This document shows positions 16,725 through 39,864 of a DNA stretch of 45,299 nucleotides, piece by piece. The notes under the pieces were generated by a model that saw nothing but the letters and a program-made list of their open reading frames with translations, made no database searches and was not told where the DNA came from. Location: assembly GCA_029907475.1 (NCBI GenBank), contig JARYLU010000023.1, positions 1-45,299 of the forward strand. Reading direction: 5' to 3'. How positions within the stretch are numbered: position 1 is the first letter of the stretch; every line of letters starts with the position of its first letter. This DNA is from Bacillota bacterium (GTDB lineage Bacteria; Bacillota; DSM-12270; Thermacetogeniales; Thermacetogeniaceae). Made by a program: the position numbers and the translations under genes.

Positions 16725-17321
16725 TTGAAAACCTTCGAAGCAATCTGTTCACGGCCCGAGCTCTGGGAGGCGGCGAACATTTTGCGGACATGGGACGAGG
16801 GTCTTTTTCAGCACTCCGTGGCCGTTGCCGACCTCGCGGTTCTGGTCGCGAGGGAGCTGGGGTTTTCCGGGGAAGAAATCGGAGCCGTCCAGCTGGGAGG
16901 CTTTCTTCACGACTTCGGGAAGACCGCCTGGCCGAAGTATTTAATCTCTAAGCAAGGGCTGAACTCTGACGATTACAAAATAATTCAGGTGCACCCCCTC
17001 ACAGGCGCGGCCCTTGTGAAAGAGCATCTTCCTGATGTTGACGAGCTTGTGCTCAGAATTATCGAAGAGCACCACGAGCGTCTGGGCGGAAGGGGTTACC
17101 CCAGGGGGCTTAAGGAGATCGGCTCCCTGAGCCAAGTAGTTTCGGCAGTCGAGTGCTTCGTTGCCCTGACCGAGGAGAGGCCGTACAGAAACAAGGCGTA
17201 TGCCCCCGGGGAAGCTGTGAAGATCGCTTTTTCGGATGGGTTCGACAAAAAGACCCTGGACGTGGTGCGGAAGCTGTTCAAAAAGAAAAAAGAAAGGGTG
17301 GTCGGTATTGTTGGCGCATAA
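16725..17321 (+). CDS. HD-GYP-type protein, likely cyclic-di-GMP hydrolase or sensor
   Basis: 198 residues from TTG 16725 (SD GGGAGGTGA). Metal ligands are in order: QHSVAVADLAVLVA, LHDFGKTAWP (HD), VHPLTGAALV and IIEEHHERLGGRGYP. The canonical HHExxDGxGYP lacks its Asp here (LGG), so activity may be altered. HD-GYP enzymes hydrolyse cyclic di-GMP. The short single-domain form placed between the TadZ genes and the prepilin peptidase suggests control of pilus assembly by this second messenger. Overlaps the peptidase gene. Confidence 0.82.
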   Translation: MKTFEAICSRPELWEAANILRTWDEGLFQHSVAVADLAVLVARELGFSGEEIGAVQLGGFLHDFGKTAWPKYLISKQGLNSDDYKIIQVHPLTGAALVKEHLPDVDELVLRIIEEHHERLGGRGYPRGLKEIGSLSQVVSAVECFVALTEERPYRNKAYAPGEAVKIAFSDGFDKKTLDVVRKLFKKKKERVVGIVGA

Positions 17322-17853
17322 ACTATTTATTTTCTTTGGCTGCCTCATCCCGGCCCTGGCCTGCGCCGTAACGGACTTCAGGTCGCGCATCATCCCAAAC
17401 AGAATCACCCTCCCGATGCTGGCGGCGGGATTTTTTTATGCAGTTTACGCCAAGAACCTGCCCGATGGTCTGCTGGGGTTCGCTTTTGCCGGCGGAGTGC
17501 TCCTTGTCTGCGCCCTCATGGGCGGGGCGGGCGGAGGAGACTTGAAGCTTGCCGCCGCGCTCGGCGCGTGGTTCGGATTTCGGAATGCGCTCTGGATTCT
17601 CTTTATCGGGAGCTTCATCGGGGTCGTGTGGGGTTCCTGGAACCTGGCAAGGCAGGGCAGGCTGAAGGCCCGGATGCTCCTGTTTTTCCGGGGTCTCTTT
17701 TTGGAAACAGTCTACGGAATGAAGGGCACGGCGATTCTCCCGAAGCTCCCGGAAGACCCGGAGGCCCCGGTGCCCCCTGAAGCCGTTCCTTTTGGAACCT
17801 GCCTGGCTGCGGCGGCCTGGGCGGTGTGGGGAGTGCGGTTGCTGGTCGGGTGA
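17308..17853 (+). CDS. tadV: A24 prepilin peptidase (TadV/CpaA type)
   Basis: 181 residues from TTG 17308 (TTG 17311 also possible). It has five or six helices with both catalytic Asp sites: TDFRSRIIPN and GGAGGGDLKLAAALGAW. It lacks the N-terminal methylase domain of PilD, as is usual for Tad peptidases. It should cut the Flp pilins (8565, 22047, 22333) and the TadE/TadG-like pseudopilins. It is the only such enzyme in the window, so both engines probably share it. Confidence 0.92.
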   Translation: MLAHKLFIFFGCLIPALACAVTDFRSRIIPNRITLPMLAAGFFYAVYAKNLPDGLLGFAFAGGVLLVCALMGGAGGGDLKLAAALGAWFGFRNALWILFIGSFIGVVWGSWNLARQGRLKARMLLFFRGLFLETVYGMKGTAILPKLPEDPEAPVPPEAVPFGTCLAAAAWAVWGVRLLVG

Positions 17854-17858
17854 ACGCT

Positions 17859-18347
17859 ATGAGGAGGCATAACAGGCAGGTGGAGGAAGACGCAAAGGTA
17901 AATTTTTTGCGACCGTCCGTAAAAGAATTAATTGCAGACTTAGCTGTGGCGGTCTTTTTTCTTCTTATGGGCGCTGCCGGGTGCTATTTTGTGGACTGGT
18001 TGTTGCTCCGACACCCCTTGAAAATTACTGAATACGTGGCGGCACTCCTTCATCCTTACACTTTACCCGGAAAGATATTTGACAGGGTACTTTGCGGGTA
18101 TTTTATTTCCATTACCGGATGGATAATAGGTGTGAAATATCTCTCGGATTTGTCGGTGCATGTATCCGGCAGGGCGCGAGGCATCCTGGACGCATTTATC
18201 ATGTTGAGCTTTTTCGCGCCGGTGTTGGTGGCGTTGATTTTCCGGCCGTTTGGCTTTCATCCCTTTAGTTTCAATTTCAAGGCATTCGGTGGCGGACTGC
18301 TTTTTACCTGCTATTACTTTATCTTGGCCGCGATGTTCCTGAGATGA
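17859..18347 (+). CDS. Hypothetical four-helix membrane protein
   Basis: 162 residues from ATG 17859 (GTG 17850 overlaps the stop of the peptidase gene). A charged N-terminus precedes four hydrophobic segments (LAVAVFFLLMGAAGCYFVDW; YFISITGWIIGVKYL; IMLSFFAPVLVALIF; GGGLLFTCYYFILAAMFL). No motif recognised. It is AT-richer than the neighbouring pilus genes and lies between the shared peptidase and engine 2. Confidence 0.5.
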   Translation: MRRHNRQVEEDAKVNFLRPSVKELIADLAVAVFFLLMGAAGCYFVDWLLLRHPLKITEYVAALLHPYTLPGKIFDRVLCGYFISITGWIIGVKYLSDLSVHVSGRARGILDAFIMLSFFAPVLVALIFRPFGFHPFSFNFKAFGGGLLFTCYYFILAAMFLR

Positions 18348-18399
18348 AGTATGGAAAAACCGGCGCTCCTTAAAAGGATAAAAGGAGGTTGAGAAAGAC

Positions 18400-19206
18400 A
18401 TGAAATTTCATTTCTCTCGCCGCAACTGGCCCGTTTACCTGGCCGTCTTTGTCGGGCTGGTGGTGGCTCTACTGTCCTGGAACAAGTTGAGCGCGGAAAC
18501 CAGGCGGGCGCAGGAAACCGTCGCCGTAGTAGTGCCCGTCCGGGACGTCCAGGCGTACAGCACCCTATCGCAAGAGGACCTGATGCTTGCCCGAATACCT
18601 GCAAGAGCAGCAGATGCCTATACCGCAAAGAACGCTTCAGAAGTGGCAGGGAAGGTGACGACCGCGCCGCTCTATAGAGGGAAACCCGTCGATGTGAGAT
18701 TCTTGGTCGAGCCCTCGGAGAACGCGGGGAACTATCAGGTCGTAGGGGTGAACGTCAACGCCGCCCGGGCGGCCGGGGTAAAGCCCGGGGACCTGGTCGA
18801 CGTTTACTGGCTGCGCCCCGAGCAGGGGTGGGTTCCCGAACAGTCTTCCCTTTTGCTCGCACAAGACGTGAGGGTGCTTCGCGTCTGCGACGAACGCGGA
18901 ACGCCCGTCGGGGAAGAGCCGAAGACGGTTCAGGGAGCAGTCGTTTCGGCCGTTGGGCCCGCGCGCGAGCCGCGCATCGTCTATCTTCTTGTGAAACCCG
19001 AGGACGTATCTAAAATCATTGCGGGATCGGCGGATAAAAGCAGCTTCATTGCCCTGGCCCGCAAGTCTGCCCCTTCAGGAGGTGAAAATGTTGCTCAATA
19101 TCCTCAAGCAGAAACAACAGGAGCCGGAGGTCAAGCAGCCCCGCAGGGTGAGTCTCCGGGAGGCGGCGGAGCTGGTTCAGGAGGTGCTGTCAAAACAGGC
19201 GGATGA
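18400..19206 (+). CDS. cpaB: CpaB/RcpC-like SAF-domain pilus assembly protein (engine 2)
   Basis: 268 residues from ATG 18400 with SD AAAGGAGG. N-terminal helix (WPVYLAVFVGLVVALLSW), SAF domain (VVVPVRDVQAYSTLSQEDL), and a second beta domain with AAGVKPGDLVDVYWLRP. The last ~40 residues are Gly/Ser/Gln-rich (GESPGGGGAGSGGAVKTGG). This tail is translated from the same DNA as the start of tadA2 in another frame (119-base overlap). Role as for the protein at 9516. Confidence 0.85.
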   Translation: MKFHFSRRNWPVYLAVFVGLVVALLSWNKLSAETRRAQETVAVVVPVRDVQAYSTLSQEDLMLARIPARAADAYTAKNASEVAGKVTTAPLYRGKPVDVRFLVEPSENAGNYQVVGVNVNAARAAGVKPGDLVDVYWLRPEQGWVPEQSSLLLAQDVRVLRVCDERGTPVGEEPKTVQGAVVSAVGPAREPRIVYLLVKPEDVSKIIAGSADKSSFIALARKSAPSGGENVAQYPQAETTGAGGQAAPQGESPGGGGAGSGGAVKTGG

Positions 19207-20425
19207 AAACCGGCTTCGAGTCTTTCAAGAGGCGGCGGCCGGCAGCTCCAAAGCCATTGCGGAAGCCGAGGGGATAATCGAAGGCGTTCTTAGAGAAGAA
19301 AAGCTGCACGTGTACGGGATGGACGGCCGCGCTGCCGCCGCCGAGATCCGCCGGCTGGTTTGGGGCCTGGGGCCCCTGGAGGACATCTACCGCGACCCTA
19401 CTGTTGACGAGATCCGCGTCCTGCCCTCGGGCAGGGTTTACGTGTCCCGCCGGGGCAAAAACGAAGCGGTGGATGTAAGCCTTTCCCAGCCCGAAATCGA
19501 AACCCTTATTCAGCGCATGATTCCGTACGAGGAAACGGGATCCGCGCTGAACGAAAGCTCGCCGATGATGGAACTGGTGCGGGCAGATGTTTCCCGTTTG
19601 ACCGCGCTCTGCAAGCCTGTTGCAAAGGGCCACCTGTTCGTTCTGCGGAAGCACGGGACGATTGAAATGCGCCCCGAGGCTTTAATAAAACTCGGCACTT
19701 TTGATGAAAAGGTCTGGCAGGTTCTGAGCCTGCTGGTGAGAGGAAGGAGAAACATACTCATATCCGGCCCGACGAAATCGGGTAAGACCACTCTCTTGAA
19801 GCTGCTCATCGGAGAGCTCCACCCCAAGCTCGCGATCAGAATCCTGGATACCGATAACGAACTGCGGGCCGCGGAGTTCTACCCCGAGCGGGACATAATC
19901 GAAGTCGAGGCCCACCCCGAACGTGGGGCGGACATGAAGAGGCTCTTCGAGAAGATTTTGCGCCTTTCGCCCGATGTCATCATCGTGGGCGAGTTCCGCG
20001 GCTACGGCGAGGCCATGGAAGCAATGCGCGCCTGCACCCGCGGCCACGACGGGTCGATGGCCACCGCTCACTTCTCGGACCCCGAAGAGGCGGTGCGCGA
20101 CACGGCCACGATGATGCTGGAGGAGGGGCTCAATCTTTCCCTGCGCCTCGCGATGGAGCGCGTTGCAAGAGCCTTCAACATTGTAGTACAGATGTTCACC
20201 GATTCTGTGTGCGGGGTTAAAAAGGTAACGGGCATTACTGAGATCTTCCCGGCGGACGGGAAAATCGAGTACCGGAAGCTGGTGGAGTGGAGGCCTCACA
20301 CCGAAGAAGACTACCTTGGGCCCGGGGAATGGGTCGTGCTCGGCGCTCCCGGCGAGAAGAGCATCAGAAAAATGCTCATGCACGGTGTACGAAGGAGCGA
20401 GATCGAGGAGGTGTTCGGCCATTGA
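19088..20425 (+). CDS. tadA: TadA, pilus assembly ATPase (engine 2)
   Basis: 445 residues from ATG 19088 with SD AGGAGGTGAAA, starting well inside cpaB. ATPase core: Walker A SGPTKSGKTTLLKLL, Asp box RILDTDNELRAAEF, Walker B region DVIIVGEFRGYGEAMEAM, and His box GSMATAHFSDPEE. It is clearly divergent from the engine-1 TadA (GPTKSGKTT against GGTGSGKTT), so this is an old duplication or separate acquisition, not a recent copy. It works with 20427 and 21254. Confidence 0.93.
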   Translation: MLLNILKQKQQEPEVKQPRRVSLREAAELVQEVLSKQADENRLRVFQEAAAGSSKAIAEAEGIIEGVLREEKLHVYGMDGRAAAAEIRRLVWGLGPLEDIYRDPTVDEIRVLPSGRVYVSRRGKNEAVDVSLSQPEIETLIQRMIPYEETGSALNESSPMMELVRADVSRLTALCKPVAKGHLFVLRKHGTIEMRPEALIKLGTFDEKVWQVLSLLVRGRRNILISGPTKSGKTTLLKLLIGELHPKLAIRILDTDNELRAAEFYPERDIIEVEAHPERGADMKRLFEKILRLSPDVIIVGEFRGYGEAMEAMRACTRGHDGSMATAHFSDPEEAVRDTATMMLEEGLNLSLRLAMERVARAFNIVVQMFTDSVCGVKKVTGITEIFPADGKIEYRKLVEWRPHTEEDYLGPGEWVVLGAPGEKSIRKMLMHGVRRSEIEEVFGH

Positions 20426-20426
20426 A

Positions 20427-21254
20427 TTGAAACTCCTGTCTCTGCTGACCGCGCTTAGCCTCGGGGTGTTTGCCGCGGGGCTTTTTGCTCTCATATTTTA
20501 CCGGTTGGATGCTTTAGGACGGAGGCGCTCTCTCGACCTCCACCTTTACGGTCTGGGAAGAATCGGGAGGCTGCGTGTCCCGCTGCCCGCATTGGCCGCA
20601 GGCTTACTGGTTTTCGCCGTGTGCATGCATCTGTTTAAAAACCCCGCTCCGGCGACATTCGGCGCCGCTCTCTGCGCGCTTCTTCCCGGTTATCTCTCTT
20701 ACTGGAGGCAAGCGCGGCACCGGGATGCGGTCTTGAACCAGCTCGCGGCTGCGGTCCGGCTCTTCGCCGCGGAATTCACGGTCTCGTCCCAGCTCGGAAA
20801 GTGCCTTGCGGTCGTCGGGCAGAGGACGCCTGACCCCGTCGGGGGCGTCTTCAAGCGGGCCTGCTTCAGACTCGCCTACGGGGGCGATGCGGATGCGGTC
20901 TTCAGGCAGATGGAGGAGGAACTCGACTCCCCCTACGGGAGAATGTTTGTCCAGATCATCAGGGCGGCACGAGAGAAAGGGCATGCGGTTGCCCCGCTCC
21001 TTCATGATCTGGTCTCCCGGATCACGGTCGCTCAGGAACTGGCGAGGAGCAACAGGAGCGAGGTATCGGGGGAGAGGTGGGTCGGTCTCCTTTTCGCCGT
21101 GCTTCCGCTGCCTCTCTACTTCCTCCTGCAGGCCTGGATTCCCGAGGCCGGAGCATTTCTAACGGGCACGGCCGCCGGACACGTCGTGGTTTTCGCCAGC
21201 TTCCTGTCGGCGATCGCCTGGTTCTACGTTGACAGGGTGGTGAACGAGACTTGA
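20427..21254 (+). CDS. tadB: TadB-like platform protein (engine 2)
   Basis: About 275 residues from TTG 20427; ATT 20421 is better spaced (7 bases) from the SD GAGGAGGTG at 20405-20413. N-terminal helices (LSLLTALSLGVFAAGLFALI), then the T2SSF pattern (LNQLAAAVRLFAAEFTVSSQ...MFVQIIRAAREKGHAVAPL) and C-terminal helices. It overlaps tadA2 and the next gene by a few bases, so is translationally coupled. Confidence 0.82.
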   Translation: MKLLSLLTALSLGVFAAGLFALIFYRLDALGRRRSLDLHLYGLGRIGRLRVPLPALAAGLLVFAVCMHLFKNPAPATFGAALCALLPGYLSYWRQARHRDAVLNQLAAAVRLFAAEFTVSSQLGKCLAVVGQRTPDPVGGVFKRACFRLAYGGDADAVFRQMEEELDSPYGRMFVQIIRAAREKGHAVAPLLHDLVSRITVAQELARSNRSEVSGERWVGLLFAVLPLPLYFLLQAWIPEAGAFLTGTAAGHVVVFASFLSAIAWFYVDRVVNET

Positions 21255-22018
21255 TGCTGTACGCGCTTATCACTGTCCTGGGTTTGGGACTGGCGGCAGG
21301 CGGCGCTGCTTGCCTTGCTTTCCGGGCTTCGGAAAGCTTTTTGGCGCAGGCTCCGGTTAGCCGGTTCTTCGAAGAAATCGGGCAAAGAGGTAGCGGGTTG
21401 GCCCGGGAAGATAAGATTGTTCTTATAGGGGGGATTGCCGGGCTTGCTACTGCAGGGACGCTTGCCTGGGGCACCGGGTACCTCTCCCTGGCCCTGATGA
21501 TCGGTCTGGGAGCAGGCACGGGAGGGGTTAAAGCCTTTCTGAAGTTCCGCGAAAGGAGGGATGCGGACGAAAAAAGAAAAGAAATAGCTTTGTTTTTCGA
21601 CGCCGTGGAGCTCTACATTCGGGCGGGCATGTCCGTTCAGCACGCCCTGGACAGCGCAAAGCTCCTGGCTCCCAGGCTCCGACAGGCGGTAAACAAGGCG
21701 CTCGTCTACTGGCCTTCGGGGCCGGCCCGTGCGCTTGAAGTGCTGAGAAAAGAAATCGCTCTCCCGGAGGGCGATATTCTGGTTTCCCTCTTATCCCAGA
21801 TCAGCCAGGCGGGGATTGAGAACCTTCAAGGAGTCATCAGCCGCGAGGCCCAGAGGCTTGAGCAGATGAGGGAGGCGGCGGAACGGGCCAGGGTTGCCCT
21901 GAAGCCTCTGTATCTCGTTCTCTACCGCACTCTGCCGCTTGTCGCCGTTCTCGGCATGGTGGCGGGCGCGCTGTTCATGAGAACAATGTCGATACTTAAA
22001 GAAACCGGCCTTTTTTGA
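21254..22018 (+). CDS. tadC: TadC-like platform protein (engine 2)
   Basis: 254 residues from ATG 21254. Two N-terminal helices, a cytoplasmic T2SSF domain (IALFFDAVELYIRAGMSVQ; LLSQISQAGIENLQGVIS) and two C-terminal helices (LVLYRTLPLVAVLGMVAGAL). It completes the second TadA/B/C engine. A pilin gene follows 28 bases later. Confidence 0.84.
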   Translation: MLYALITVLGLGLAAGGAACLAFRASESFLAQAPVSRFFEEIGQRGSGLAREDKIVLIGGIAGLATAGTLAWGTGYLSLALMIGLGAGTGGVKAFLKFRERRDADEKRKEIALFFDAVELYIRAGMSVQHALDSAKLLAPRLRQAVNKALVYWPSGPARALEVLRKEIALPEGDILVSLLSQISQAGIENLQGVISREAQRLEQMREAAERARVALKPLYLVLYRTLPLVAVLGMVAGALFMRTMSILKETGLF

Positions 22019-22046
22019 GAAAGTTTCATGAAAGGAGGGTCGCAAG

Positions 22047-22265
22047 ATGCTCGGACAGATCAGACGTATTTTTAAGGATGAGCGAGGCGCCTACGGCGGA
22101 GTCGAGCTTGCCGTCATCATCGGTATCGTTCTCACGGTGACAATGGCGATTCTGAACGCCTTCAAGGGAGACGGAACTACAACCGGGCTCCCGGGAGCGG
22201 CAAACAACGTTGTGGATACGGTTACAAGCACGATAAACAATGCAGCCGGATCGGGCACGCCGTAA
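22047..22265 (+). CDS. Flp-like pilin (engine 2)
   Basis: 72 residues from ATG 22047 with SD AAAGGAGGG. It has a basic leader (IRRIFKDERGA), then YGGVELAVIIGIVLTVTMAI: class III cleavage after Gly, Glu in the helix, and a short Thr/Asn/Gly-rich tail. It differs from the pilin at 8565 (no SEYG), so engine 2 probably builds a different fibre. A strong terminator follows directly, setting this gene as the end of an engine-2 unit. Confidence 0.8.
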   Translation: MLGQIRRIFKDERGAYGGVELAVIIGIVLTVTMAILNAFKGDGTTTGLPGAANNVVDTVTSTINNAAGSGTP

Positions 22266-22272
22266 GAAGCAG

Positions 22273-22315
22273 AAAGCGCGGGTTGAAATTGACATCCCGC
22301 GCTTTTCTATTTTTT
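22273..22315 (+). terminator. Rho-independent terminator
   Basis: Stem AAAGCGCGGG/CCCGCGCTTT (10 bp) with a 13-base loop and TTCTATTTTTT tail. The stem is nearly that of 13552-13576. Confidence 0.87.
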
Positions 22316-22332
22316 AAAACACGTTTGAGGAG

Positions 22333-22527
22333 GTGCTGAAAACGAGAAAATGGTTTTTTCTCATCAAAGACGAGCGCGGCGGGGTCACCGGGGCGGAACT
22401 TGCCCTGATCGTCGGCGTGGCGGCCCTGATAGCCTTTGCGGTGGTTTCCGCGCTCCTGCCGGCTTTCCGGGACCTGCACACCCGGGCGCAGAACAGCGTG
22501 ACGGGCATATCGGAAACAGGATTTTGA
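22333..22527 (+). CDS. Flp-like pilin or pseudopilin
   Basis: 64 residues as drawn from GTG 22333, which lies within the SD GAGGAGGTG itself; the true start may be a codon just after it. Class III prepilin segment: IKDERGGVTGAELALIVGVA followed by a hydrophobic helix and a short tail ending ISETGF. Third small pilin of the window. It overlaps the next pseudopilin by 4 bases. Confidence 0.72.
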   Translation: MLKTRKWFFLIKDERGGVTGAELALIVGVAALIAFAVVSALLPAFRDLHTRAQNSVTGISETGF

Positions 22528-22946
22528 GCAACGAGCAGGGCGCGGTTTTGGGCGTCGAGTTCCTGATCGTCGCCTGCCTCGTCGTCTTTCTCATTTTCGG
22601 CGCAACCGACTACTGGCTCGCCCAGGTGAAGCTCCAGCAGGCGGAGCACATCAAGAACTACTACCTGGACAGGGTGAGAGTCGAGGGGTGCCTGACTTCC
22701 CGGGACGAAGCGGAAATGCTCGGCCGCTTTGACCAGGCGGGGTTCACGGTGAAAAGCATCGATGCTCCCGCGACGCGCGTCCTCCGCAATGTTGAGGACC
22801 CGACTCTGTCTGAGGTCTGGCTTCGCGTTGAGCTTGAACCGGACCGGCGGTTCTTCGTGCTGGGGAGGTTGCTCGGTACCGCAGAGCCGGAAGGATTGAC
22901 GATGCGGGTGGCCGGAAGGGGGTTGAGCGAGCGTGTTGAGCCATGA
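22524..22946 (+). CDS. TadE-like pseudopilin
   Basis: 140 residues from TTG 22524, overlapping the pilin stop (TTGA). The N-terminus SNEQGAVLGVEFLIVACLVV has the prepilin Glu and helix. The globular part (residues ~35-140) is acidic to neutral with one Cys. It overlaps the following TadG-like gene. By order it is the counterpart of the pseudopilins at 5244 and 5642. Confidence 0.75.
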   Translation: MSNEQGAVLGVEFLIVACLVVFLIFGATDYWLAQVKLQQAEHIKNYYLDRVRVEGCLTSRDEAEMLGRFDQAGFTVKSIDAPATRVLRNVEDPTLSEVWLRVELEPDRRFFVLGRLLGTAEPEGLTMRVAGRGLSERVEP

Positions 22947-23532
22947 CGAGCGAGGGGCCGTTGTCACCGTTATCCTTCTAATTCTGGCGCCTTTACTGCT
23001 GGCCGGTATTCTTCTGGTCAGCGAACACCCCCGTCTTGTTCACGGGTCGGACGTAGACCTCGGCCAGGCGGTAGCGGAAGCCGTCCGGGCCGCGGCAATG
23101 TGCGTGGACGATGCAAGCCAGGCGAGCGGCCAGCCCCGGATTGAACCCGACCGGGCGCATCTTACATTCCGGCGTATTCTGGCAAGAAATCTGGGTTTGT
23201 CCGAAGCGACGCTTGAGCCTCTTCCCGGGTCCGGGATGAAGTCCGCGCCGTCCTACGTCCTTCTGATCTACAACGGGGACGACACGTATATGCCGGCGGC
23301 GCGGGAATATTCCCTTTTAAACGGATCCTACAGCCAGGCTGACCTTTTGCTGACGGGCTTTCCGCAGGATTTTGCCGTGAACAACGACAGTATAACACCG
23401 GGAACAGAGGGGATAACGACGACTCTCAGCACTCCCGGGTGCGTTGCGGTCGTGAGGGGCAAGACAACGCCTATCTTGAGCGGGGATGCAGAACCCGTAA
23501 GATGGGCGGCGGCAAGAATCGTGACAAAGTAA
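22933..23532 (+). CDS. TadG-like or minor pilin protein
   Basis: 199 residues from GTG 22933 (TTG 22936 also possible). The N-terminus HDERGAVVTVILLILAPLLL has the same ERG-hydrophobic start as the other Tad exported proteins, but the Glu at the +5 position is replaced (AVVTV). The rest is an exported domain with two cysteines (AAMCVDDASQ and TPGCVAVV). Last gene of the Tad block; AT-rich sequence begins right after it. Confidence 0.65.
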   Translation: MLSHDERGAVVTVILLILAPLLLAGILLVSEHPRLVHGSDVDLGQAVAEAVRAAAMCVDDASQASGQPRIEPDRAHLTFRRILARNLGLSEATLEPLPGSGMKSAPSYVLLIYNGDDTYMPAAREYSLLNGSYSQADLLLTGFPQDFAVNNDSITPGTEGITTTLSTPGCVAVVRGKTTPILSGDAEPVRWAAARIVTK

Positions 23533-23658
23533 AGAGGATGGTGACTTATTATTTTAAGAAACCAGAATGGAGCTGTTAGCGATATTCAATTTTTAGGTTT
23601 TTTAAAATATAAGCCGAGTTCAAGTAACGATGAAGGAATGAGAGAGGAGGAAGGTTAT

Positions 23659-23730
23659 ATGAAAATACCAATACAGTTCTTAGCAGGGCCGAGAGAGAGA
23701 GAGAGAGAGACAAAGGAGGCGCCTGGTTAG
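23659..23730 (+). CDS. Out-of-frame leader ORF of the phase-variable surface gene
   Basis: ATG 23659 has the best SD of the region (GAGGAGGAAGG, 23645-23654). It opens MKIPIQFLAGPRERERE, passes through the GA tract and stops at 23728-23730 with the present ten GA units. Loss of one unit, or gain of two, would carry it into the signal peptide and the 23754 reading frame. This appears to be the genuine start of that gene in an OFF state. Confidence 0.7.
   Translation: MKIPIQFLAGPRERERETKEAPG
23691..23710 (+). repeat. (GA)10 dinucleotide tract, phase-variation switch
   Basis: Ten perfect GA units between ATG 23659 and the signal peptide of the surface protein. The unit is 2 bp, so each slip changes the frame. 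Ten units: the start is out of frame; nine or twelve: in frame. Confidence 0.85.
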
Positions 23731-23753
23731 TAAAAAACTGCGCCCTACAGGCT

Positions 23754-26579
23754 TTGTTCCGACCTCTTGAGCAGACATTTCTTGTACTGCTCTTATTACT
23801 GTTGGGGTTTCTTGGTTTGGAGTTTAATGTTTGTGAGGCTGGAACCTGGCAGTATGTTGATACTTCAACTGTAACTAACCGTACAAGAATAATGTGCGCG
23901 GGGTTGGATGGAGAAAGTTATTATGTCGCACGGGGAAGCGTTGTCTCAAAATATACATCAAGCGGCAAAACGTATTTACCTGCAATCCCCAGTACTTTAG
24001 AAATTACAGGCATTACCTTAGCTCCTGACGGCAGCCTTTGGGTTGGAGATAGAAACTGCAACATTTACAGATATAACGGAAGTGCTTGGGAGAATAAGGG
24101 ACGGCCGCTGTCACAGAGCAACGTAACATGTATTCCGGCTGTGACAAGTGCTGGTGAAGTATGGGTTGCTGCTCAGGATAGGGTATACCGCTGGACCGGA
24201 TCTTCCTGGCAGTACGTCTCGACCGGATATAGCGGAGATAGTTCAGTTATCGACTTTCTGGCCTCGCGTGATGGTAAGCTATTTTATCAAGTCGGTGCTG
24301 GTATTGGTACAAGTGTATGGAACAACGTTTCATGGACAAGCCATATCACTGAAACGGGAGCAAAATTCGCGTTAGATAACAATGGGGATGTATGGTTTGC
24401 GGGATATGATTACGAACACGCCGAGCTTAAGGTGGGAAAATACATAAATGGTTCTTTTCAAGTTAATGTTATTCGTAGTTTTTTTGGAGGAAACATAAGA
24501 AGTCTTACTTTCGGTAGGGGAAACTTGCTCTTTTTAGGATGTGATAACGGGATTTATGTTCTAACTTGCGACAATAATCTAGTGCAATTAAGTTCTGAAG
24601 ATAGCTCTCCATTCGTAGCACTTAAAGACGGAAGCCTGATTGTAAACCGTGGTGGTCTCGGGCTTTACAAGTACAACTACGATTTCCAAGCAGCACCGGC
24701 GCCAAACGGCCCCACTGGCCAGCTGGTAGTTGATCCGCGGTCCGGCGATGGATTTGAATTACGGCATACTGTTGTAGAAGGCAGCAATGACGGTTCAAAC
24801 TTTTCAGAAGTTGGTATTTCTAGTAACGGAAGTAATGTCGTAGTAACTCCGACCGGAACAACGTACTGGGTTAGGACGCGAGAAAGCTATGTACCCGGGC
24901 CAGTTGGGCCAGTATATACACGCTACAGCAATGTGGTGCAGATACCCACGGTACAGGCTCCCTCCGTTGTAGTGGAAACGGGGAGGGTTACCTGGGACGC
25001 TGCCCGCGGTCGCTCCTGGACGAAGCTGACCTTCCCGACCACGAATGCCACGGGGTATAAACTCCACATCTTCGACGGCAATGCCTACCGCACTAAAGAC
25101 TTGGGCAACGTCACCTCCTGGGACAGCAGGACGGCAAAGATTTTTCCGTACCCGGGGGATCTCCCGGAGAACAATACCATTTCAACCGATCCTTTTCGCT
25201 GGAACGGCTCCGGCCTCGACTTCGAGGATACTGCAAGGCGCCTTTACCGGAGCACTGTAGGTACTTACTACGATGATCGTGACAACTACTGGTTCCGTGT
25301 AACCGCATACAATCAGTGGATGGAAACGGACTTCAACGCGTCGTCTGCGATAAAGGCACCGACATTTTCCAACGCCACCGACGCCCAGCAGCCGACTGGC
25401 TCTTGCGGTGCTACGTCGCGGGAGGGCCTGGAGAAGACCTATGACCCGAACATCAGGGTGGCCGTTTCGGCGCAGGACGCCCTCTCCGGCGTGTGGAAGG
25501 TGGAGCTCTCCAACGACGGGGTTTCTTATACCCAGGTGTACACGGCTAACAAGACTGCCGACGGCGGCACCGGGGTCTCGAGTTACTCCAACACTTTCGA
25601 TTGGACCGTACCGCTCGGTGCCGGGACCAAGGTCGTCTACGTCCGGATAACGGACGCCGTTGACAACCAGAAGGTGGTTACGGACACCGTAGCTCTGGCG
25701 GAGGACATGCTTTCCCCGTCCGTGACCCTCTCCATCAACGGCGGCGCGGAGTCGACGACCAGCGCGACCGTCACCCTGACGCTGACCGCGCAGGACAACA
25801 CTTCCACCACTTCGCAGATGCAGATGAGATTCAGCAACGACGGCAACATCTGGTCCCCGTGGGAGCCGTTCCAGCAGACGAAGAGCTGGAACCTGACAGA
25901 TGCTACCTACGGCGGCACCTCCTCCGCCGGGATCAAGAAGGTCTACGCCCAGGTGTGCGACCAGGCCCAGAACGTGGCCCTGGCCGTGGACGACATCGGC
26001 TACAACCCGACACCCCCGAGCGGGAGCGTAAGCATTGTCGGCGGTTCCTCTGGCACCTGGAACGGTCAGCCCGCGCTGTTCACGAACCAGGACGCTCCGA
26101 CCTTGAGCCTCAGCTACTCCGGCGCTTCCCAGGTGCGGTTCGACCCGGGGACGGGCGTCTGGGGCGACTGGGAGAGCTACGCCAGCCAGAAGACCGTCTA
26201 TCTGGTGAAATCCCAGGGGGCCTGCCGTCTGCGCGTGCAGGTGAAGGACAGCTACGGCGTGGCCGCGGCCCTGCAGGAGTTCATTGTCGTGGTTGACCCG
26301 GCGCCGTCGGTGATCACCACTCTGCGCGGTCTGAACGGAGCCACGGCAACCAGAACATCCTCGGCCATGCTGGAAATCACTGCTTCCGACAACCTGCCCG
26401 GCACCTTGCAGTATAGATACCAGGTAAACGGCGGAACCTGGTCTTCCTGGGCCAACCTGACCGGAAGCACCATCTCCGTTTCCGGCCTGGCGTCTGGAGC
26501 GAACCGGATTACGGTCGAGGTAAAGGATGCGGCAGGAAACGCCGCACAAAAGAGCCTGACGATGTTTAAAGTAGCGTGA
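23754..26579 (+). CDS. Large secreted propeller/Ig-like surface protein, phase-variable
   Basis: 941 residues counting from TTG 23754; the frame has no other start upstream, and the true start is probably ATG 23659 in another phase. A signal peptide is clear (LVLLLLLLGFLGLEFNVCEA). Residues ~30-310 look like a beta-propeller (repeated DGSLWVGDRNCNIYRYNGS-like units). After ~390 come Ig/fibronectin-like modules with DNTS..QMQMRFSNDG and a last module starting VITTLRGLNGATATR. The first ~1.2 kb is AT-richer than the rest, suggesting an exchanged N-terminal region. No sorting signal seen. Likely an adhesin or pilus-associated protein (inference from place and fold). A terminator follows. Confidence 0.72.
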   Translation: MFRPLEQTFLVLLLLLLGFLGLEFNVCEAGTWQYVDTSTVTNRTRIMCAGLDGESYYVARGSVVSKYTSSGKTYLPAIPSTLEITGITLAPDGSLWVGDRNCNIYRYNGSAWENKGRPLSQSNVTCIPAVTSAGEVWVAAQDRVYRWTGSSWQYVSTGYSGDSSVIDFLASRDGKLFYQVGAGIGTSVWNNVSWTSHITETGAKFALDNNGDVWFAGYDYEHAELKVGKYINGSFQVNVIRSFFGGNIRSLTFGRGNLLFLGCDNGIYVLTCDNNLVQLSSEDSSPFVALKDGSLIVNRGGLGLYKYNYDFQAAPAPNGPTGQLVVDPRSGDGFELRHTVVEGSNDGSNFSEVGISSNGSNVVVTPTGTTYWVRTRESYVPGPVGPVYTRYSNVVQIPTVQAPSVVVETGRVTWDAARGRSWTKLTFPTTNATGYKLHIFDGNAYRTKDLGNVTSWDSRTAKIFPYPGDLPENNTISTDPFRWNGSGLDFEDTARRLYRSTVGTYYDDRDNYWFRVTAYNQWMETDFNASSAIKAPTFSNATDAQQPTGSCGATSREGLEKTYDPNIRVAVSAQDALSGVWKVELSNDGVSYTQVYTANKTADGGTGVSSYSNTFDWTVPLGAGTKVVYVRITDAVDNQKVVTDTVALAEDMLSPSVTLSINGGAESTTSATVTLTLTAQDNTSTTSQMQMRFSNDGNIWSPWEPFQQTKSWNLTDATYGGTSSAGIKKVYAQVCDQAQNVALAVDDIGYNPTPPSGSVSIVGGSSGTWNGQPALFTNQDAPTLSLSYSGASQVRFDPGTGVWGDWESYASQKTVYLVKSQGACRLRVQVKDSYGVAAALQEFIVVVDPAPSVITTLRGLNGATATRTSSAMLEITASDNLPGTLQYRYQVNGGTWSSWANLTGSTISVSGLASGANRITVEVKDAAGNAAQKSLTMFKVA

Positions 26580-26600: not shown

Positions 26601-26637
26601 CCCCGGCTTCTTACAAGAGCCGGGGCTTCTTTTTTTT
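26601..26637 (+). terminator. Rho-independent terminator
   Basis: Stem CCCCGGCT/AGCCGGGG (8 bp), 9-base loop, then CTTCTTTTTTTT. Confidence 0.88.
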
Positions 26638-27123: not shown

Positions 27124-27348
27124 TCAAAGAGACTCCCAAAATTCTTTTTCAGTTATCTTCAGTTGTTTTTTGAGAATCCTCTGCCACAACTGCTTCGGAA
27201 TTTCTTTGTGAACAGCGCGGCTCACCTTCGTCATGAGCACGGTTCCGTCGGCCAGGACCTTCTCGTAGTACCAGTGGTCGGTACTCCTGACCAGCACCCA
27301 GCCGTTCTTTTCGCAGTACCGCTTCAGATCTCCGAACTTGGGAGGCAT
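27124..27348 (-). CDS. HicA-like toxin of a toxin-antitoxin pair
   Basis: 74 residues from ATG 27348. It matches small double-stranded-RNA-binding-fold toxins: FGDLKRYCEKNGWVLVRSTD, then HWYYEKVLADGTVLMTKVS and a C-terminal basic helix (IPKQLWQRILKKQLKI). The usual HicA Gly-x-His is RSTDHWYY here. HicA proteins cleave mRNA. The start codon lies one base after the antitoxin stop (TAA-A-ATG), so translation is coupled. The antitoxin gene comes first, unlike classic hicAB. Confidence 0.65.
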   Translation of the reverse strand: MPPKFGDLKRYCEKNGWVLVRSTDHWYYEKVLADGTVLMTKVSRAVHKEIPKQLWQRILKKQLKITEKEFWESL

Positions 27349-27349
27349 T

Positions 27350-27769
27350 TTAGATCTCCAGCAGGCTCCGAATTTCTTCGTCGCTGTTGCAGAGCAGTAC
27401 GCGCAGGATATACGGGAAGTGCGCCCGCCGGTTGGGAGCGTTAATAAAAAGTTGCGAGCGTTCGAGATAGTCCAGGGCATAGAACTTCAGGTCCCGAACC
27501 AGTTCCTGCGCGGCTTCTTCCACCGTCCGGCCGTTGGCGTAAAGTTCAAGCTCATCCAGGGCCAGGGTGACAGATCCGTCCTCTTCCTGGATGACCTCCG
27601 GTTTAAGCTTGTACTTTTCCAGGAGCAGCTTCTGGAGATCGGCCCGCAGGACCAGGACTTCTTCCGCCTGCCTGCGCCTGATGATCACCGGCCGGTAGTG
27701 ATTGAAAACCTTGCTGTACAGAGTCGAAAAGTCGCCGCGAGCTTCGGTAAACTTCAATTCTTCCAGCAT
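27350..27769 (-). CDS. Antitoxin, Phd/YefM-like N-terminus
   Basis: 139 residues from ATG 27769, six bases after AAGAGGTG (ATG 27775 and GTG 27778 also in frame). The first ~50 residues resemble prevent-host-death antitoxins: TEARGDFSTLYSKVFNHYRP then VIIRRRQAEEVLVLRADLQ. The C-terminal half has a HicB-like strand-helix pattern (GSVTLALDELELYANGRTVE EAAQELVRDL). Such antitoxins bind their promoter and neutralise the toxin. Its start region overlaps that of the divergent gene at 27846, so any autoregulation would also cover that promoter. Confidence 0.65.
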   Translation of the reverse strand: MLEELKFTEARGDFSTLYSKVFNHYRPVIIRRRQAEEVLVLRADLQKLLLEKYKLKPEVIQEEDGSVTLALDELELYANGRTVEEAAQELVRDLKFYALDYLERSQLFINAPNRRAHFPYILRVLLCNSDEEIRSLLEI

Positions 27770-27845
27770 CAGCATCACCTCTTACCTTCATGATAGCACA
27801 ACTGTGCAGAATGTGCAGATTGAATTTTCAAGGGAGTGGTTTCTT

Positions 27846-28843: not shown

Positions 28844-28900
28844 CAAGGTTTCCCTGGATAAGGAACGCCCTGGTATAAATCAAAAACTAAAGGAGAGTGA

Positions 28901-30478
<1,578 letters not shown>

Positions 30479-30794: not shown

Positions 30795-33035
30795 GTGCAA
30801 AATTGCTTTAAAAAGGGTTGGAAAAAGCCGAGGGATAGATTGATATGTCCCCCAAAATTTTCACTGGTTCTAGGTGCATTTTTGGCGCTTTTGGGAGTAT
30901 TTGTCGCAGCCGGGTATGTGCTTGCGGCTTCCTGGGGCTACAAAATTACCGTCTCCGATACCCCCTCCACAATCGACTTCACGAAAACATCCGCAGTTAT
31001 CGACACCACCTTAAACGAGATCCGGCTCCCGAAGTATGCTCCCAAAGTGGCCGCCTTCTGGAACGACGAATATTTAGATTATATTGTGCTTACGCAGGAC
31101 GGTGTAATTCATTACTCTTTTGATGGAAGCCAGATGGTCGCCAATCCAGTTGCGAGCGTATCCGGTGTGTCAAATCCCCTGGCCGCATTCACTTCCGGTG
31201 ATTATCCCGACGTGATTGTAGCCGATGGAAGCCGGAACCAAATAACTCACTATTCCTTCACCGGATCGGAGATGGCCGAAAACCCGGCCCTTTCTGTTAC
31301 CGGACTCACGGGGGTTGTAAGCGTTGGATCTCGTGATGTTGACTTGGCCGCCCTGACCGGCGGCAAAATCGAATACTACGGCTGGGACGGGTCCAGCATG
31401 GTCAATATCCCGGCTCTGTCCGTAGAGACGGGGTTAACCAACCCGATAGACTTCGCTCTCTTCGACAGCTACGACATGATCGTACTGGACGGGAACCAGG
31501 CCCGGTATTACAACTCGGGAACTGAGAATCCGGCTCTGGCGATCACCGGCCTGACCGCTCCGAAGGCCGTGGCCGTGGCGGACGGGAGAAACGTTGCCAT
31601 CGTGGACGGCACTCAGGTGAAACACTATACTTTCGACGGCTCAGGCTTCAGTTATAATTCTGCTCTTTCGGTAACTTCCGGCCTCAGCGCCCCCACGTGC
31701 GTCGCCCTGCGCCCGGGAACTTACGACCGGCTCATCGTGGACGAGGATAATGTCCGCTACTACATGTGGGACGGCTCGCAACTGGTCTACAACGCCCAGC
31801 TTTCGGTTACGGTATCGGGTCTTCAGAACATGGGGAGCTACGCTTCAAGCGCATCTGCTCAATCCTTGGGCAGGGACCCGGGCAGCAGCGTTACCTACGT
31901 CCGGGTACGCGCGTACCACGTCCTGCCTGACGGAACATCTGTAACTTGGTCGGTCACGGCGGACGGGACGAACTGGGTCAAGAAGTGGCGCGTCCGGGGG
32001 GTTCCTGGAGGCGCGACCGCGTGCGAAATCTCGAACGACAACGGCCAGACCTGGAACTCCATCGGGAATGCTTCGCAGGCTTCCCCGGCGGTCAGCAGGG
32101 AGGAGCTATGGGTCCAGGTTCCTGCCGGCAGGTCCGTGAGGTGGAAGGCGGAGCTTGCGACAACCAATCCGAACTACACTCCGAAAATCAAAGCTCCAAA
32201 TCCCGGAGTTGACAATGCGGTCGTTCTGGAAACTGACAACAAACCCATTCCGCCGGTCATTTCGACGCCGGGCACGTGCTACACCACGACGACCCCCACG
32301 TTCACCTGGACGTTTTCGGACCCCGACCCGGGAGACTATCAAACCGCCTACCAGGTGCTCATCAAGCGCAAGTCCGATGGGGCGCTGGTTTATGACTCTG
32401 GGAAAGTTTTATCTTCCCAGACTCAGTTCAAGGTGCCGACCAGCGCGGACCCGGCCGTTCCAGGACCGCTCTGGAGCTCGGGCGCGTACCAGTTCACCGT
32501 TCAGGCGCGGGTCTGGGACAGCATGGGGCTTCCCTCTGACTGGGGTCCGGCTGCCGACTTCTGCGTTATCGGCTTCGAGCGGCCCAGGATTAGGGAAATC
32601 GTCTCCGCTCCCGCAGGGCAGGCCAAACCTAACCCTGACGACCCGGCGACGCATATTATGATAACCGAAGGAATGGCGCAGACTCAGCTTCCCAAGACCA
32701 AGGCCGGGGGCAAAGTCGGCGTCCTGCTCGACTCGGTGGGGCCGCTTTCCACGTTCACGGCGCGGTTTCCGTACCTTTCGACCGAGGCCACCGTCGGCTC
32801 CGTCTCCGTCGTGGCGACGAACGGAACGAACCAGAGAAGGCTTATCGAGTTCTGGACGGACGCCAGCCTAGAGGTTTGCCCTTCCGGAACGCTCGTAAAA
32901 GGCGAATTCTCCGGCTCCGGAGCGGCAGGAGCGACGAACTTAAATCTCCCCCCGTACGCGGCGGGGGTGGTGGTAACGGAGGGGTCGGTATATTCGGACT
33001 GGTTTGTTGTACTGCAGGGGAGAAAAACCAATTAA
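30795..33035 (+). CDS. Secreted beta-propeller plus Ig-like surface protein
   Basis: 746 residues from GTG 30795. Basic N-terminus then a signal peptide (FSLVLGAFLALLGVFVAAGY, cleavage near LAAS). Residues ~60-350 contain about six ~45-residue blades with the pattern YSFDGSQMVANPVASVSG ... DVIVADGSRN. Residues ~355-470 have a discoidin/Ig-like look (VTWSVTADGTNWVKKWRV), followed by a fibronectin-III-like module (TPTFTWTFSDPDPGDYQTAY) and a final beta domain. No GA tract, so not switched like its neighbours. Probably exported and surface-located; no anchor motif visible. Confidence 0.7.
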   Translation: MQNCFKKGWKKPRDRLICPPKFSLVLGAFLALLGVFVAAGYVLAASWGYKITVSDTPSTIDFTKTSAVIDTTLNEIRLPKYAPKVAAFWNDEYLDYIVLTQDGVIHYSFDGSQMVANPVASVSGVSNPLAAFTSGDYPDVIVADGSRNQITHYSFTGSEMAENPALSVTGLTGVVSVGSRDVDLAALTGGKIEYYGWDGSSMVNIPALSVETGLTNPIDFALFDSYDMIVLDGNQARYYNSGTENPALAITGLTAPKAVAVADGRNVAIVDGTQVKHYTFDGSGFSYNSALSVTSGLSAPTCVALRPGTYDRLIVDEDNVRYYMWDGSQLVYNAQLSVTVSGLQNMGSYASSASAQSLGRDPGSSVTYVRVRAYHVLPDGTSVTWSVTADGTNWVKKWRVRGVPGGATACEISNDNGQTWNSIGNASQASPAVSREELWVQVPAGRSVRWKAELATTNPNYTPKIKAPNPGVDNAVVLETDNKPIPPVISTPGTCYTTTTPTFTWTFSDPDPGDYQTAYQVLIKRKSDGALVYDSGKVLSSQTQFKVPTSADPAVPGPLWSSGAYQFTVQARVWDSMGLPSDWGPAADFCVIGFERPRIREIVSAPAGQAKPNPDDPATHIMITEGMAQTQLPKTKAGGKVGVLLDSVGPLSTFTARFPYLSTEATVGSVSVVATNGTNQRRLIEFWTDASLEVCPSGTLVKGEFSGSGAAGATNLNLPPYAAGVVVTEGSVYSDWFVVLQGRKTN

Positions 33036-35128: not shown

Positions 35129-35329
35129 ATGTTGATTATCGACCGCTTTGAAGGGGATTGGGCTGTTATTGAATTCGGTAAGAAAACATTCAACTTCCCG
35201 AAAAGCCTGCTTCCCAAAGAAGTAAAAGAAGGAGATGTTATTGTGATAAGCGTTTCCATAGACAGAAAAGCAACTACAAAAAGAGAGAGAAACATCAAAA
35301 AGCTGGCCGACCAGCTTTTTGAAGATTGA
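35129..35329 (+). CDS. DUF3006 family protein
   Basis: 66 residues from ATG 35129. Typical for the family: MLIIDRFEGDWAVIEFGKKT then FNFPKSLLPKEVKEGDVI, with a basic helical tail. DUF3006 genes commonly precede ComEC-like metallo-beta-lactamase genes, as here. Function unknown. The stop overlaps the leader of the next gene by 4 bases. Confidence 0.85.
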   Translation: MLIIDRFEGDWAVIEFGKKTFNFPKSLLPKEVKEGDVIVISVSIDRKATTKRERNIKKLADQLFED

Positions 35330-35343
35330 AAGGGGAGCGCTTC

Positions 35344-36618
35344 ATGAGACGAAACTCTATTTTGTCTCTTATTCTGGCCTTTTTGTTGGCCGTTATTGCC
35401 GGCTGCGGCAGCCAGAATGTTTCGGAAATCAACGAATCACCAGCGCAGGTAAGTGCTTCTGAAATATCGTCTCAGACTGTAACAGCCCAACAGCCCAACA
35501 CTCAGCCTGCTCTCTCAGGAAAACTATCCGTTCGCTCCATCAACGTCGGCCAGGGAGATTCCATTCTGCTCCAGCTCCCCAACAGCCAGACAATGCTTAT
35601 TGACGCCGGGCCGAACGAAGCCGGCTCTACCGTGGTCTCTTATCTCCAGAAGCAGGGAATCAAGAAAATCGACTACCTTGTAGCCACTCACCCTCACGCC
35701 GACCACATCGGCGGAATGGACGCGGTCATCCAGGCGTTTGAAATAGGGAAAGTCTACATGCCCCGGGTGACAACCACAACCGAGAGTTTCGAGAGCGTCC
35801 TTCGTTCTCTCCAGGCGAAAGGTTTGAAGATAACCACGGCTAAGTGCTTTAAAAAATTACGGTGACATATTTAAACAGATACATGAACCAATATTTCCCC
35901 GAAGAGCAACATACCACACCTACAAATAAATTTACGTAAATAATACGTCACCGAATTTATGTTAAGGAGTACTAAGGCGGATTTAACTGTACTTGACCGG
36001 AACGGCTTGAAAATAAGTTTTATTGCTCCATGTGGTTCCGGTTACGAAGACCTGAACAACTGGTCCGCGGTACTTAAAGTCCACTATGGCGACACTTCCT
36101 TCTTGCTCACCGGAGACGCTGAAGCAGAATCCGAGCAGGAAATGCTTGCGTCAGGCGTAAGTTTAAAGGCCGACGTGCTCAAAGTCGGCCACCACGGGAG
36201 CCACAGCTCCACGACACCGGCTTTTCTGAAGGCTGTTTCCCCCAAGTACGCTGTCATCTCCGTGGGGGCGGGGAACGACTACGGGCACCCCCATCAGGAG
36301 ACTCTGGCAAAGCTGGCCGGCGCCGGGGTCAAGGTCTACCGGACCGACAGAGACGGGACGGTTGTCTTTGTGAGCGACGGCAAGACGCTCACTGTGAGAA
36401 CGCTGGGCAGCACGATTATGACACGGGCGCCGAACGGGGCAACGGCGGCTCCGGTTGTTCCTGCGGCCAGTGGGGGATATATCGGGAACAAAAATACCCA
36501 TAAGTTTCACCGACTTACTTGTTCAAGTCTACCTGCGCCGCAAAACAGGGTTTATTTTCAAACCAGAGATGAAGCGATAAGAGCAGGATTTGTACCGTGT
36601 AAGATATGTAAACCATAA
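35344..36618 (+). pseudogene. ComEC/Rec2-like metallo-beta-lactamase lipoprotein, split by an insertion
   Basis: ATG 35344 with SD AAAGGGGAG. A lipoprotein signal peptide (LILAFLLAVIAGC, Cys at the lipobox), a Ser/Thr/Gln-rich linker, then the hydrolase fold: INVGQGDSILLQL and ATHPHADHIGGM (HxHxDH metal site). Translation stops at 35865 inside an insertion. The rest resumes at about 35973 with DRNGLKISFIAP, LLTGDAEAES and LKVGHHGSHSSTT. The C-terminus is an Ada-type metal-binding module (FHRLTCSSLP...FVPCKICKP). Deleting one CTAAG plus the insert restores one frame exactly (TTAK-ADLTVLD). Probably inactive as it stands. Confidence 0.85.
35845..35971. mobile_element. MITE-like insertion with imperfect terminal inverted repeats
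   Basis: 127 bases between two CTAAG copies (35840-35844 and 35972-35976), AT-rich, no coding capacity. The ends are related inverted repeats: AAAATTACGGTGACATATTT near the left and, on the opposite strand at the right, AAATTCGGTGACGTATTA. The parent transposase is not in the window. The target duplication may be CTAA (YTAR-type, as used by IS5-group elements) or up to 5 bp. Confidence 0.75.
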
Positions 36619-36644
36619 ACAAGGATTAAAAGGAGAATGTATTG

Positions 36645-39600
36645 ATGTCTAATAACGAAAATTTCTTAAAAAAACTTCAATCTCTCTTCCGAGAGCTTTT
36701 CCAATTCGATTTTGCCGACTTGGATTTTGGCCTTTACCGTATATTTCATCTGAAACGGGCCGAAATTGAAACTTTTATAAGCGAACAATTGCCAAGTGAA
36801 GTAGATGTAGCTTTTAAGACTGTTACTGGCGAGGAGCAACAACGATTGCAAGAAGACTTAAATATATTAGCTCAACAGGTGCGGGAACAGATTGCAGATG
36901 ACGCTATTTTACCTACTGGTGAACTCCAGCCGAAGTATCTAGAAAGTAACATTAAAGTTGTGCGCGAGTTGGTGGAACGATATGAAAACGTCCGTCAGAA
37001 AGTAGCTGCCAACGAAGTTGCCGAGGCACACAAGGTTGAAGTTTTTAATCATCTATACAACTTCTTCAGTCGTTATTACGAAGACGGTGACTTTATTTCT
37101 AAACGTCGATATGGAGCAAAAGAATCCTATGCCATACCCTACAGCGGCGAAGAGGTTTTCTTCACATGGGCCAACCGTAACCAGCACTATGTAAAAACCG
37201 CTGAAACCTTTAAAGACTATACTTTTAAAGTATCCAACCTGTTTACCGAGTACCATGTACGCTTCACAATGGTCGAAGCAAGCATCCCCAAGGACAATAC
37301 CAAAGGAAATACACGCTACTTTATTCCGCGCCTTGACCTATTGACCTACGATGATCAAGTTTGTGAGTTAATTCTTTCATTTGAGTACCGTTTGCTCACG
37401 CCGGAAGAAGCTGAGCGCTATGGCTCAAATAGCAAGGCACAAGAGGCAATCATTCAGGAAGCTTTACCCCAAATTTTAGAAACTGTTGCCAATGAAGACT
37501 TGTGCGCTCTACTTAAGCAGGATCAAAGAAATGAAAAAGAAATTGTAGACGGTAAACCCGAATTACCGCTTCTTCTTAAGCGTCTGCGTCACTTTTGCCG
37601 TAAGAACACCAGTGATTACTTTATTCATAAAGACTTGCGGGGATTTTTAAAACGCGAATTAGAGTTTTACATTAAGGAGCAGGTTATTCATTTAATGGAT
37701 CTTGAAGCAAACGAAGCTGACCTAAACGTTAAACGCCGTATACTACGCGTGTTTCGGAGACTGGCCGAAAATGTTATTGAGTTTTTAGCGAATATAGAAG
37801 ATGCTCAGAAAATCCTGTTTGAAAAGAAAAAATTTATCTTAGGCGTGGACTACCTTATTCCTATCCAGCACATTCCGCGGGTATTCTGGCAGGAGATTCT
37901 ACGAAACGAAGGACAGTTGAAAGAGTGGCAGAACTGGCTGACCTTGAAACCAGAAGAAGTAAACGAGGTTTTTCTGGAAAACCGCCCCACCTTGACAGTG
38001 CATACTAAGTATTTTGACCGTGTTTTTGTACAGCGCTTGTTGGAAGCGTTACCTTTCGAGGACCTGGACGAAGCTACTGACGGTCTGTTGGTGCACGGTG
38101 AGAACTACCAGGCCCTATGCCTGCTTATGCAGTGTTACTTGAAGCAAGTGAAGTGCATTTACATCGACCCGCCGTACAATGCAGCAGAGAGTGAAATCTT
38201 ATATAAAAACTCGTACAAGCACTCTTCCTGGGCAAGCCTTATGCATCCACGGCTCTCTGTTGCAAAAGAAATTCAGGCACCAGACGGCTTGATTTGTGTC
38301 ACAATAGATGACTATGAGTTGCAATACCTTAAGTTCATCATAGATGAAGTCTTTGGAGCGAATAATCACTTTGCCACTGTGGTGATTCGAAATAATCCCT
38401 CTGGGCGTTCCACAGTAGCTGGGTTCGCTGTTAACCACGAATACGCCTTGTTTTACGCCAAGTCAGCCCAACTCGCACATGTGGGACGCCTTCCGCACAG
38501 CGAAGGGCAAATATCCAGGTATGACCAAATCGATGAAAATGGTAAACGATTTGAGTGGGAAAATTTGAGAAAAAGCAGCAGAGGGTCCTTGAGAAGTGAT
38601 AGGCCAAAGCAGTTTTTCCCTCTGTACTACAACAAGAGAACTGGCGGTTTACGAGTGCCGTCAATGATGTGGAGAGAGTCTATACAGTTGTGGGAAATTT
38701 CAGAACCGCCTGACGACGATGAGATTGCTTTATACCCCGTTGATGAAAGCGGAGTAGAGAGGGTTTGGAATTACGGCGTGGAGCGAGCAAAAAAAGAAGC
38801 GGCACAGATGATAGTAGTAGAAAACGGAGAGAGACATGAAGTATATAAACGGAAGTACCTTCATCAGGAAGGAATGCTGCCTCGAACTTGGTGGGATAAG
38901 CCCGCGTATTCGGCCCGTGACAATGGAGCTCGAACGTTGAAAAACCTCTTTGGACAGATTCGCACGTTTGATTTTCCAAAAGCGGTTCAAGCAGTTAGTG
39001 ATGCTATTCGTATATGCTTAGGACCATCCACCTCTGATGCCGTCAATTACATCTTCGACTTCTTCGCCGGCTCCGGTACTACCGGCCACGCCGTCATCAA
39101 CCTCAACCGTGAAGACGGCGGGCAGCGTAAATTTATCCTGGTGGAAATGGGCGAATATTTCGACACCGTCCTCTTGCCTCGCATTACCAAAGTGATGTAC
39201 ACGCCGGAGTGGAAGGACGGAAAGCCCAAACGGGAGGCCACGCCGGAGGAGGTCGAGTGTACGCCGTGTCTGGTTAAAATCCTGCGTATTGAATCCTACG
39301 AAGATACCCTGCATAACCTGGCGGCGACGGCGGAACGATTTTCCAGTTCCGGAGAAGCCCGAAAGCGCGAGGAAGCCATCAAGACCCTGGCTGGGGAAGA
39401 CACCTACCGCCTGCGCTACTGGATCGAATTACCACTGCGCGAGGCCGAGACCTGTCTGCGGGCTCTGGACTTAGTCCATCCATTCGCTTACACCCTGGAA
39501 ATCCTTACCGAAGACGGTCCCGTACGTAAGCCTGTGGACGTGGTGGAAACTTTCAACTACCTGTACGGCCTGCGCGTCCGGCGTTACGAAACATGGTCCA

Positions 39601-39863: not shown

Positions 39864-39864
39864 G

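Follow-up and report, generated by a model that had tools for sequence, protein, structure and literature searches.

How a large, predicted secreted protein encoded beside a Tad-like pilus cluster of an environmental Bacillota bacterium is expressed is a question raised by the 5′ end of its gene, where a well-placed start codon leads through a run of GA dinucleotides into an early stop. The tract may be a slipped-strand switch, or it may reflect an assembly error, neutral repeat growth or a frame that is bypassed during expression. We analyzed a stretch of 45,299 nucleotides (the window), in which the following features bear on this question.

17236–23532, + strand: Tad-like pilus cluster upstream of gene 1 (prepilin peptidase, RcpC/CpaB, TadA-like ATPase, TadB/C-like and TadE/F-like proteins)
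23644–23654, + strand: Shine-Dalgarno sequence of gene 1, GAGGAGGAAGG, read directly from the sequence
23659–23730, + strand: gene 1 as assembled, an ATG, 23 codons across the GA tract and a TAG (OFF)
23691–23710, + strand: (GA)10 tract of gene 1; predicted ON lengths, 3k units (9, 12 ...)
23754–26579, + strand: body of gene 1, 941 codons, out of frame with ATG 23659
26601–26625, + strand: terminator-like hairpin and T run directly 3′ of gene 1
28890–28897, + strand: Shine-Dalgarno sequence of gene 2, AAGGAGAG, read directly from the sequence
28901–30478, + strand: gene 2, 525 aa, in frame across its tract (ON)
28917–28954, + strand: (GA)19 tract of gene 2; predicted ON lengths, 3k+1 units (16, 19, 22 ...)
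30795–33035, + strand: 746-aa exported protein without a tract, conserved with the locus in the related genomes G001 and G115

The original prediction described a strong start at ATG 23659 that runs through ten GA units into a stop at 23728, and each of these elements was read back in the sequence. The tract of gene 1 consists of ten perfect, uninterrupted units (23691–23710), and the frame of ATG 23659 crosses it to reach the TAG at 23728–23730, giving the peptide MKIPIQFLAGPRERERETKEAPG. Codon 23754 of the large frame lies 95 bases from ATG 23659 (23754 − 23659), from which it had been calculated that removal of one unit or addition of two would restore the frame. This arithmetic was correct: in the computed frames, 6, 9, 12, 15 and so on GA units fuse the leader to LVLLLLLLGFLG, and the full-length product has 972 aa with nine units and 974 aa with twelve. 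Ten or 11 units bring a stop after 23 or 37 codons, and the out-of-frame tract lengths as a whole give peptides of 19–43 residues when the unit number alone is varied.

A repeat scan revealed a second tract, (AG)19.5 at 28916–28954, directly 3′ of ATG 28901 and ATG 28907 and 5.2 kb downstream of that of gene 1. The frame of gene 2 is open through it (MTMFFRERERERERERERRKACFSSLAGVRKILTLVLLVSLISGVFPNTSDAA...), being ON at 19 units and OFF at 18 or 20 in the computed frames. The gene 2 product comprises a leader, RE repeats, a signal peptide, a propeller-like region with weak propeller-like repeats, an Ala-rich helix and a C-terminal domain, a layout that rests partly on a low-confidence model; a model of P0001 folded alone had a pLDDT of 40, was unusable and was not used for function. 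The C-terminal domain is common to genes 1 and 2 (30% identity over 92 residues, E 5e-4, in a single comparison). In both genes the repeat is perfect, has a short unit that is not a multiple of three and lies within the 5′ coding region, and a change in its length toggles the computed product between full-length and truncated forms. The gene 2 tract, which was absent from the original prediction, is the strongest support for reading the locus as a switch.

We consider it very probable that genes 1 and 2 are paired slipped-strand contingency loci resembling sabA of Helicobacter. In each gene a well-placed ATG is followed by a perfect GA tract within the first 25 codons and then by the predicted signal peptide of a multi-domain, presumably secreted protein belonging to the Tad-like pilus locus. 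Replication slippage would add or remove GA units and so shift the frame, each gene being full length at one in three tract lengths and otherwise yielding no more than a short leader. Because the tracts would vary independently of each other, four surface states may be possible per clone, the assembled genome representing gene 1 OFF (10 units) and gene 2 ON (19 units). By inference, cells differ in tract length, selection maintains the switching, and the two products are adhesive proteins exposed at the surface.

As in the present genus, where MutS and MutL were not detected, Helicobacter pylori is not known to have canonical mismatch repair, and its outer-membrane adhesin genes other than sabA also carry CT repeats in their 5′ coding regions. 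The sabA gene itself carries its CT repeats near the 5′ end of the reading frame, which is open with 7 or 10 of them (PMC2715451). The present genes resemble it in having a dinucleotide tract near the 5′ end, one third of lengths in frame and a short peptide in the OFF state. Unlike those of the sabA adhesin gene, however, the repeats here are GA on the coding strand (Arg-Glu repeats), and they occur in a Bacillota host, in unrelated protein families and at a Tad-like locus; moreover, switching is predicted here from the sequence of one genome. In our literature search, no close parallel emerged among Firmicutes for a slippage switch that uses GA repeats or is linked to a Tad locus.

The best-surviving alternative, though an unlikely one, is an assembly or amplification error, in which case the tract of gene 1 would really have 9 (or 12) units and gene 1 would simply be ON. 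The genome is a draft of 114 contigs, and the units of a long dinucleotide tract may have been counted wrongly; for sabA of H. pylori J99, the annotation gave 9 repeats but resequencing gave 10 (PMC2715451). However, the 20 bases of the tract lie well within a single short read, the longer second tract came out in frame, and an error of one unit would alter the state but leave the tract and the frame design intact. The claim of a phase switch is supported by the frames, the signal peptide, the Tad-like neighborhood and the rarity of the tracts, and is strengthened by the second tract, by sequence conservation and by the apparent lack of MutS/MutL; that it was caught OFF may still reflect a tract assembled with one unit too many or too few.

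Loops of two nucleotides are a classic target of mismatch repair. Neither MutS_I nor the MutL domain was found in this genome (G000, a draft 99.65% complete), in the other two genomes of its genus (g1) or in the three genomes of a second genus (g2), and NucS_C was likewise not found in the two genera. Both MutS_I and MutL are present in 14 of 20 genomes of the family, all of them outside g1 and g2. Because two separate proteins are missing in all members, the pattern argues for a true loss. Since MutS/MutL were undetected and such loops are their substrates, the lengths of the GA tracts should change often and the tracts should be hypermutable; slippage loops would stay unrepaired, and fast switching would be kept up. 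Slippage in Campylobacter has been ascribed to absent mismatch repair, and the contingency loci of Campylobacter jejuni are similar in that slippage switches surface structures, at a high rate, in such a background (PMC3928116). They differ in comprising mononucleotide tracts at many loci, compared with two GA tracts here, our genome-wide count being of the GA class.

Across the 3,013,107 bases of the genome (114 contigs), only two tracts of at least six GA units occur, (GA)10 and (GA)19, both on the coding strand between a start codon and a signal peptide at a single locus. The other GA sites number seven, each exactly (GA)5, with none of 6–9 units. Under a Markov model with the composition of the window, the expected counts in 3.01 Mb are about 8.5 for (GA)5, about 1e-5 for (GA)10 and 3e-16 for (GA)19. 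Because seven (GA)5 sites compare with 8.5 expected, short GA runs follow chance, and only (GA)10 and (GA)19 exceed it. Tracts of at least ten units were found in 3 of the 398 genomes searched, including this one; those of G146, where the DNA is pyrimidine-rich, and of G316 are intergenic and were ruled out as 5′ coding switches, leaving the two 5′ coding tracts in one genome only among those searched. The assertion that such a switch is unusual for a Firmicute therefore holds for GA tracts alone. A (GA)8 run was also observed in G003, which belongs to another genus without MutS/MutL; it sits immediately upstream of the ribosome site that serves an MBL-fold gene (L040 1501–1516).

The body of gene 1 is open across all 941 codons, with no stop and no second frameshift. 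It encodes a signal peptide, a propeller-like head, several FN3/Ig-like stalk domains and a C-terminal Y_Y_Y/OmpL47-like domain, the Y_Y_Y and OmpL47-like family scores both being slightly under the curated cut-offs. Signal peptides were judged by eye and hydropathy, and the model of the gene 1 protein (P0003, pLDDT 63) was used for domain types alone. No sequence match for the protein was found in the PDB. In fold comparison it showed domain-level likeness to BT4663-type sensor ectodomains and to the Aureispira grappling-hook protein GhpA (propeller, Y_Y_Y and Ig-repeat types), with low whole-chain TM-scores of about 0.15–0.23 at which function is not transferable. Gene 1 shares 75% identity with its Moorella stamsii homologue over 480 codons (dN/dS 0.12, with dS saturated) and 91% with G001 over 259 codons, the last 259 (dN/dS 0.21). 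Conservation is far lower in the head (31%), a pattern often seen in exposed domains. The OFF frame of gene 1 is conserved, and its conserved part is under purifying selection. Since the body is open and dN/dS is low, this conservation fits a gene that would be in use at least part of the time.

These data bear on the possibility, which we regard as quite improbable, that the tracts are neutral microsatellites grown by chance without mismatch repair and that gene 1 is a fresh pseudogene. A lineage in which MutS/MutL were not found may indeed grow microsatellites non-adaptively, and the (GA)8 of G003 is a case from another such genus. However, the remainder of the genome stays at the chance level for GA runs, and the long tracts occupy the same functional position in two genes with a common domain at one locus; decay of gene 1 is also countered by its uninterrupted body and by the purifying selection on its conserved part.

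It is similarly improbable that gene 1 is expressed despite its frame, by reinitiation at TTG 23754 after TAG 23728 or by polymerase or ribosome slippage, so that control is not all-or-none. Between codon 23754 and the nearest stop before it, at 23631, the large frame contains no ATG, GTG, CTG, ATT, ATC, ATA or other TTG, and TTG 23754, its sole start-type codon, has no Shine-Dalgarno sequence, which agrees with the earlier statement that this frame has no good start. The TTG is only 24 bases past the leader stop and its product would keep the signal peptide (MFRPLEQTFLVLLLLLLGFLG), so weak expression could occur; however, the AAGGAGG at 23713–23719 has no start codon at a usable distance in the body frame, no start codon preceded by a ribosome site was found in the stretch from tract to hydrophobic core of either gene, gene 2 has no comparable fallback ahead of its core, and transcript slippage is minor in H. 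pylori sabA, where cDNA tract lengths match the genomic ones (PMC2715451).

Returning to the paired-switch reading, homologous loci occur in Moorella and Fervidicola. In G115 (L037) the gene order is the same and GA tracts are absent: Tad-like genes, TadE/F-like proteins, an Rv0361-like protein, a 983-aa homologue and a 307-aa homologue bearing the C-terminal domain common to genes 1 and 2 are followed by a counterpart of the 746-aa protein and then by an actin-like protein. Gene order is likewise kept in the Tad-like locus of Moorella stamsii DSM 26217; in these two relatives the C-terminal half is 59–75% identical and no GA tract is present. Tract-free homologues open with an ordinary leader and signal peptide. 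G001 has a rearranged remnant of the locus. Because these nearest relatives have no tracts, the switch appears to be young or lineage-specific. The original prediction had proposed comparing related strains; the comparison found homologues in G001, G115 and M. stamsii and no length variants to compare. Several further observations were made in these genomes. G001 (L036 5762–6240) has a duplicate of the 5′ end of the 746-aa gene, joined to a dockerin-like tail, the counterpart of the tail preceding gene 2 in the window, and the switch gene is missing there. The M. stamsii homologue (L043 8942–11446) lacks its 3′ end, and a transposase-like gene lies downstream of the truncation; a T6 run near its start was rejected as a switch, there being by eye no in-frame leader at 5–7 T.

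The predicted signal peptide and the Tad-like neighborhood that had been claimed for gene 1 are both present. Within the cluster, RcpC, Peptidase_A24 and T2SSE scored above the family cut-off and the TadB-like T2SSF below it, and the TadC and TadE/F proteins had no family match in the profile search. Because of the domain types and the conservation of the Tad-like neighborhood in G115, the products of genes 1 and 2 may have a secreted adhesin or pilus-associated role. Other genes of the window were also recorded. Genes 1 and 2 are separated by, among other genes, a minus-strand toxin-antitoxin-like pair (27124–27778), a PHD_like antitoxin and a HicA-like toxin that scored below the cut-off. 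At 35326–36618 lies a split gene for a metallo-beta-lactamase (ComEC-like) protein that includes an Ada-type zinc domain; it has a stop at 35865 and a frame that resumes at 35959, and gives two Pfam pieces in order. At 36642–43017 there is a type III-like restriction-modification pair, an N6_N4 methylase and a ResIII protein; with no repeat tract in the gene, the mod gene was ruled out as a phase-variable methylase.

Simple-repeat switches have been described mainly from host-adapted pathogens (PMC9990875). The mechanism is known, and what is new and notable is the Bacillota host, the Tad-like setting, the OFF/ON pairing and the fact that they coincide with a loss of mismatch repair. The broader proposition, that an environmental Bacillota genus having lost MutS/MutL independently evolved a Helicobacter-like combinatorial two-gene GA switch at a Tad locus, seems to us somewhat more plausible than its negation. 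If it is true, host-adapted Gram-negative pathogens are not the only bacteria in which slippage switches can arise, and defense against phage or a part in attachment might be the use of such switches here. Automated annotation would label an intact, switched-off gene of this kind a pseudogene or misplace its start. Paired switches in a Bacillota lineage with no mismatch repair detected would also offer a natural test of whether repair loss precedes the recruitment of repeats, and of what selects repeat switches without an animal host.
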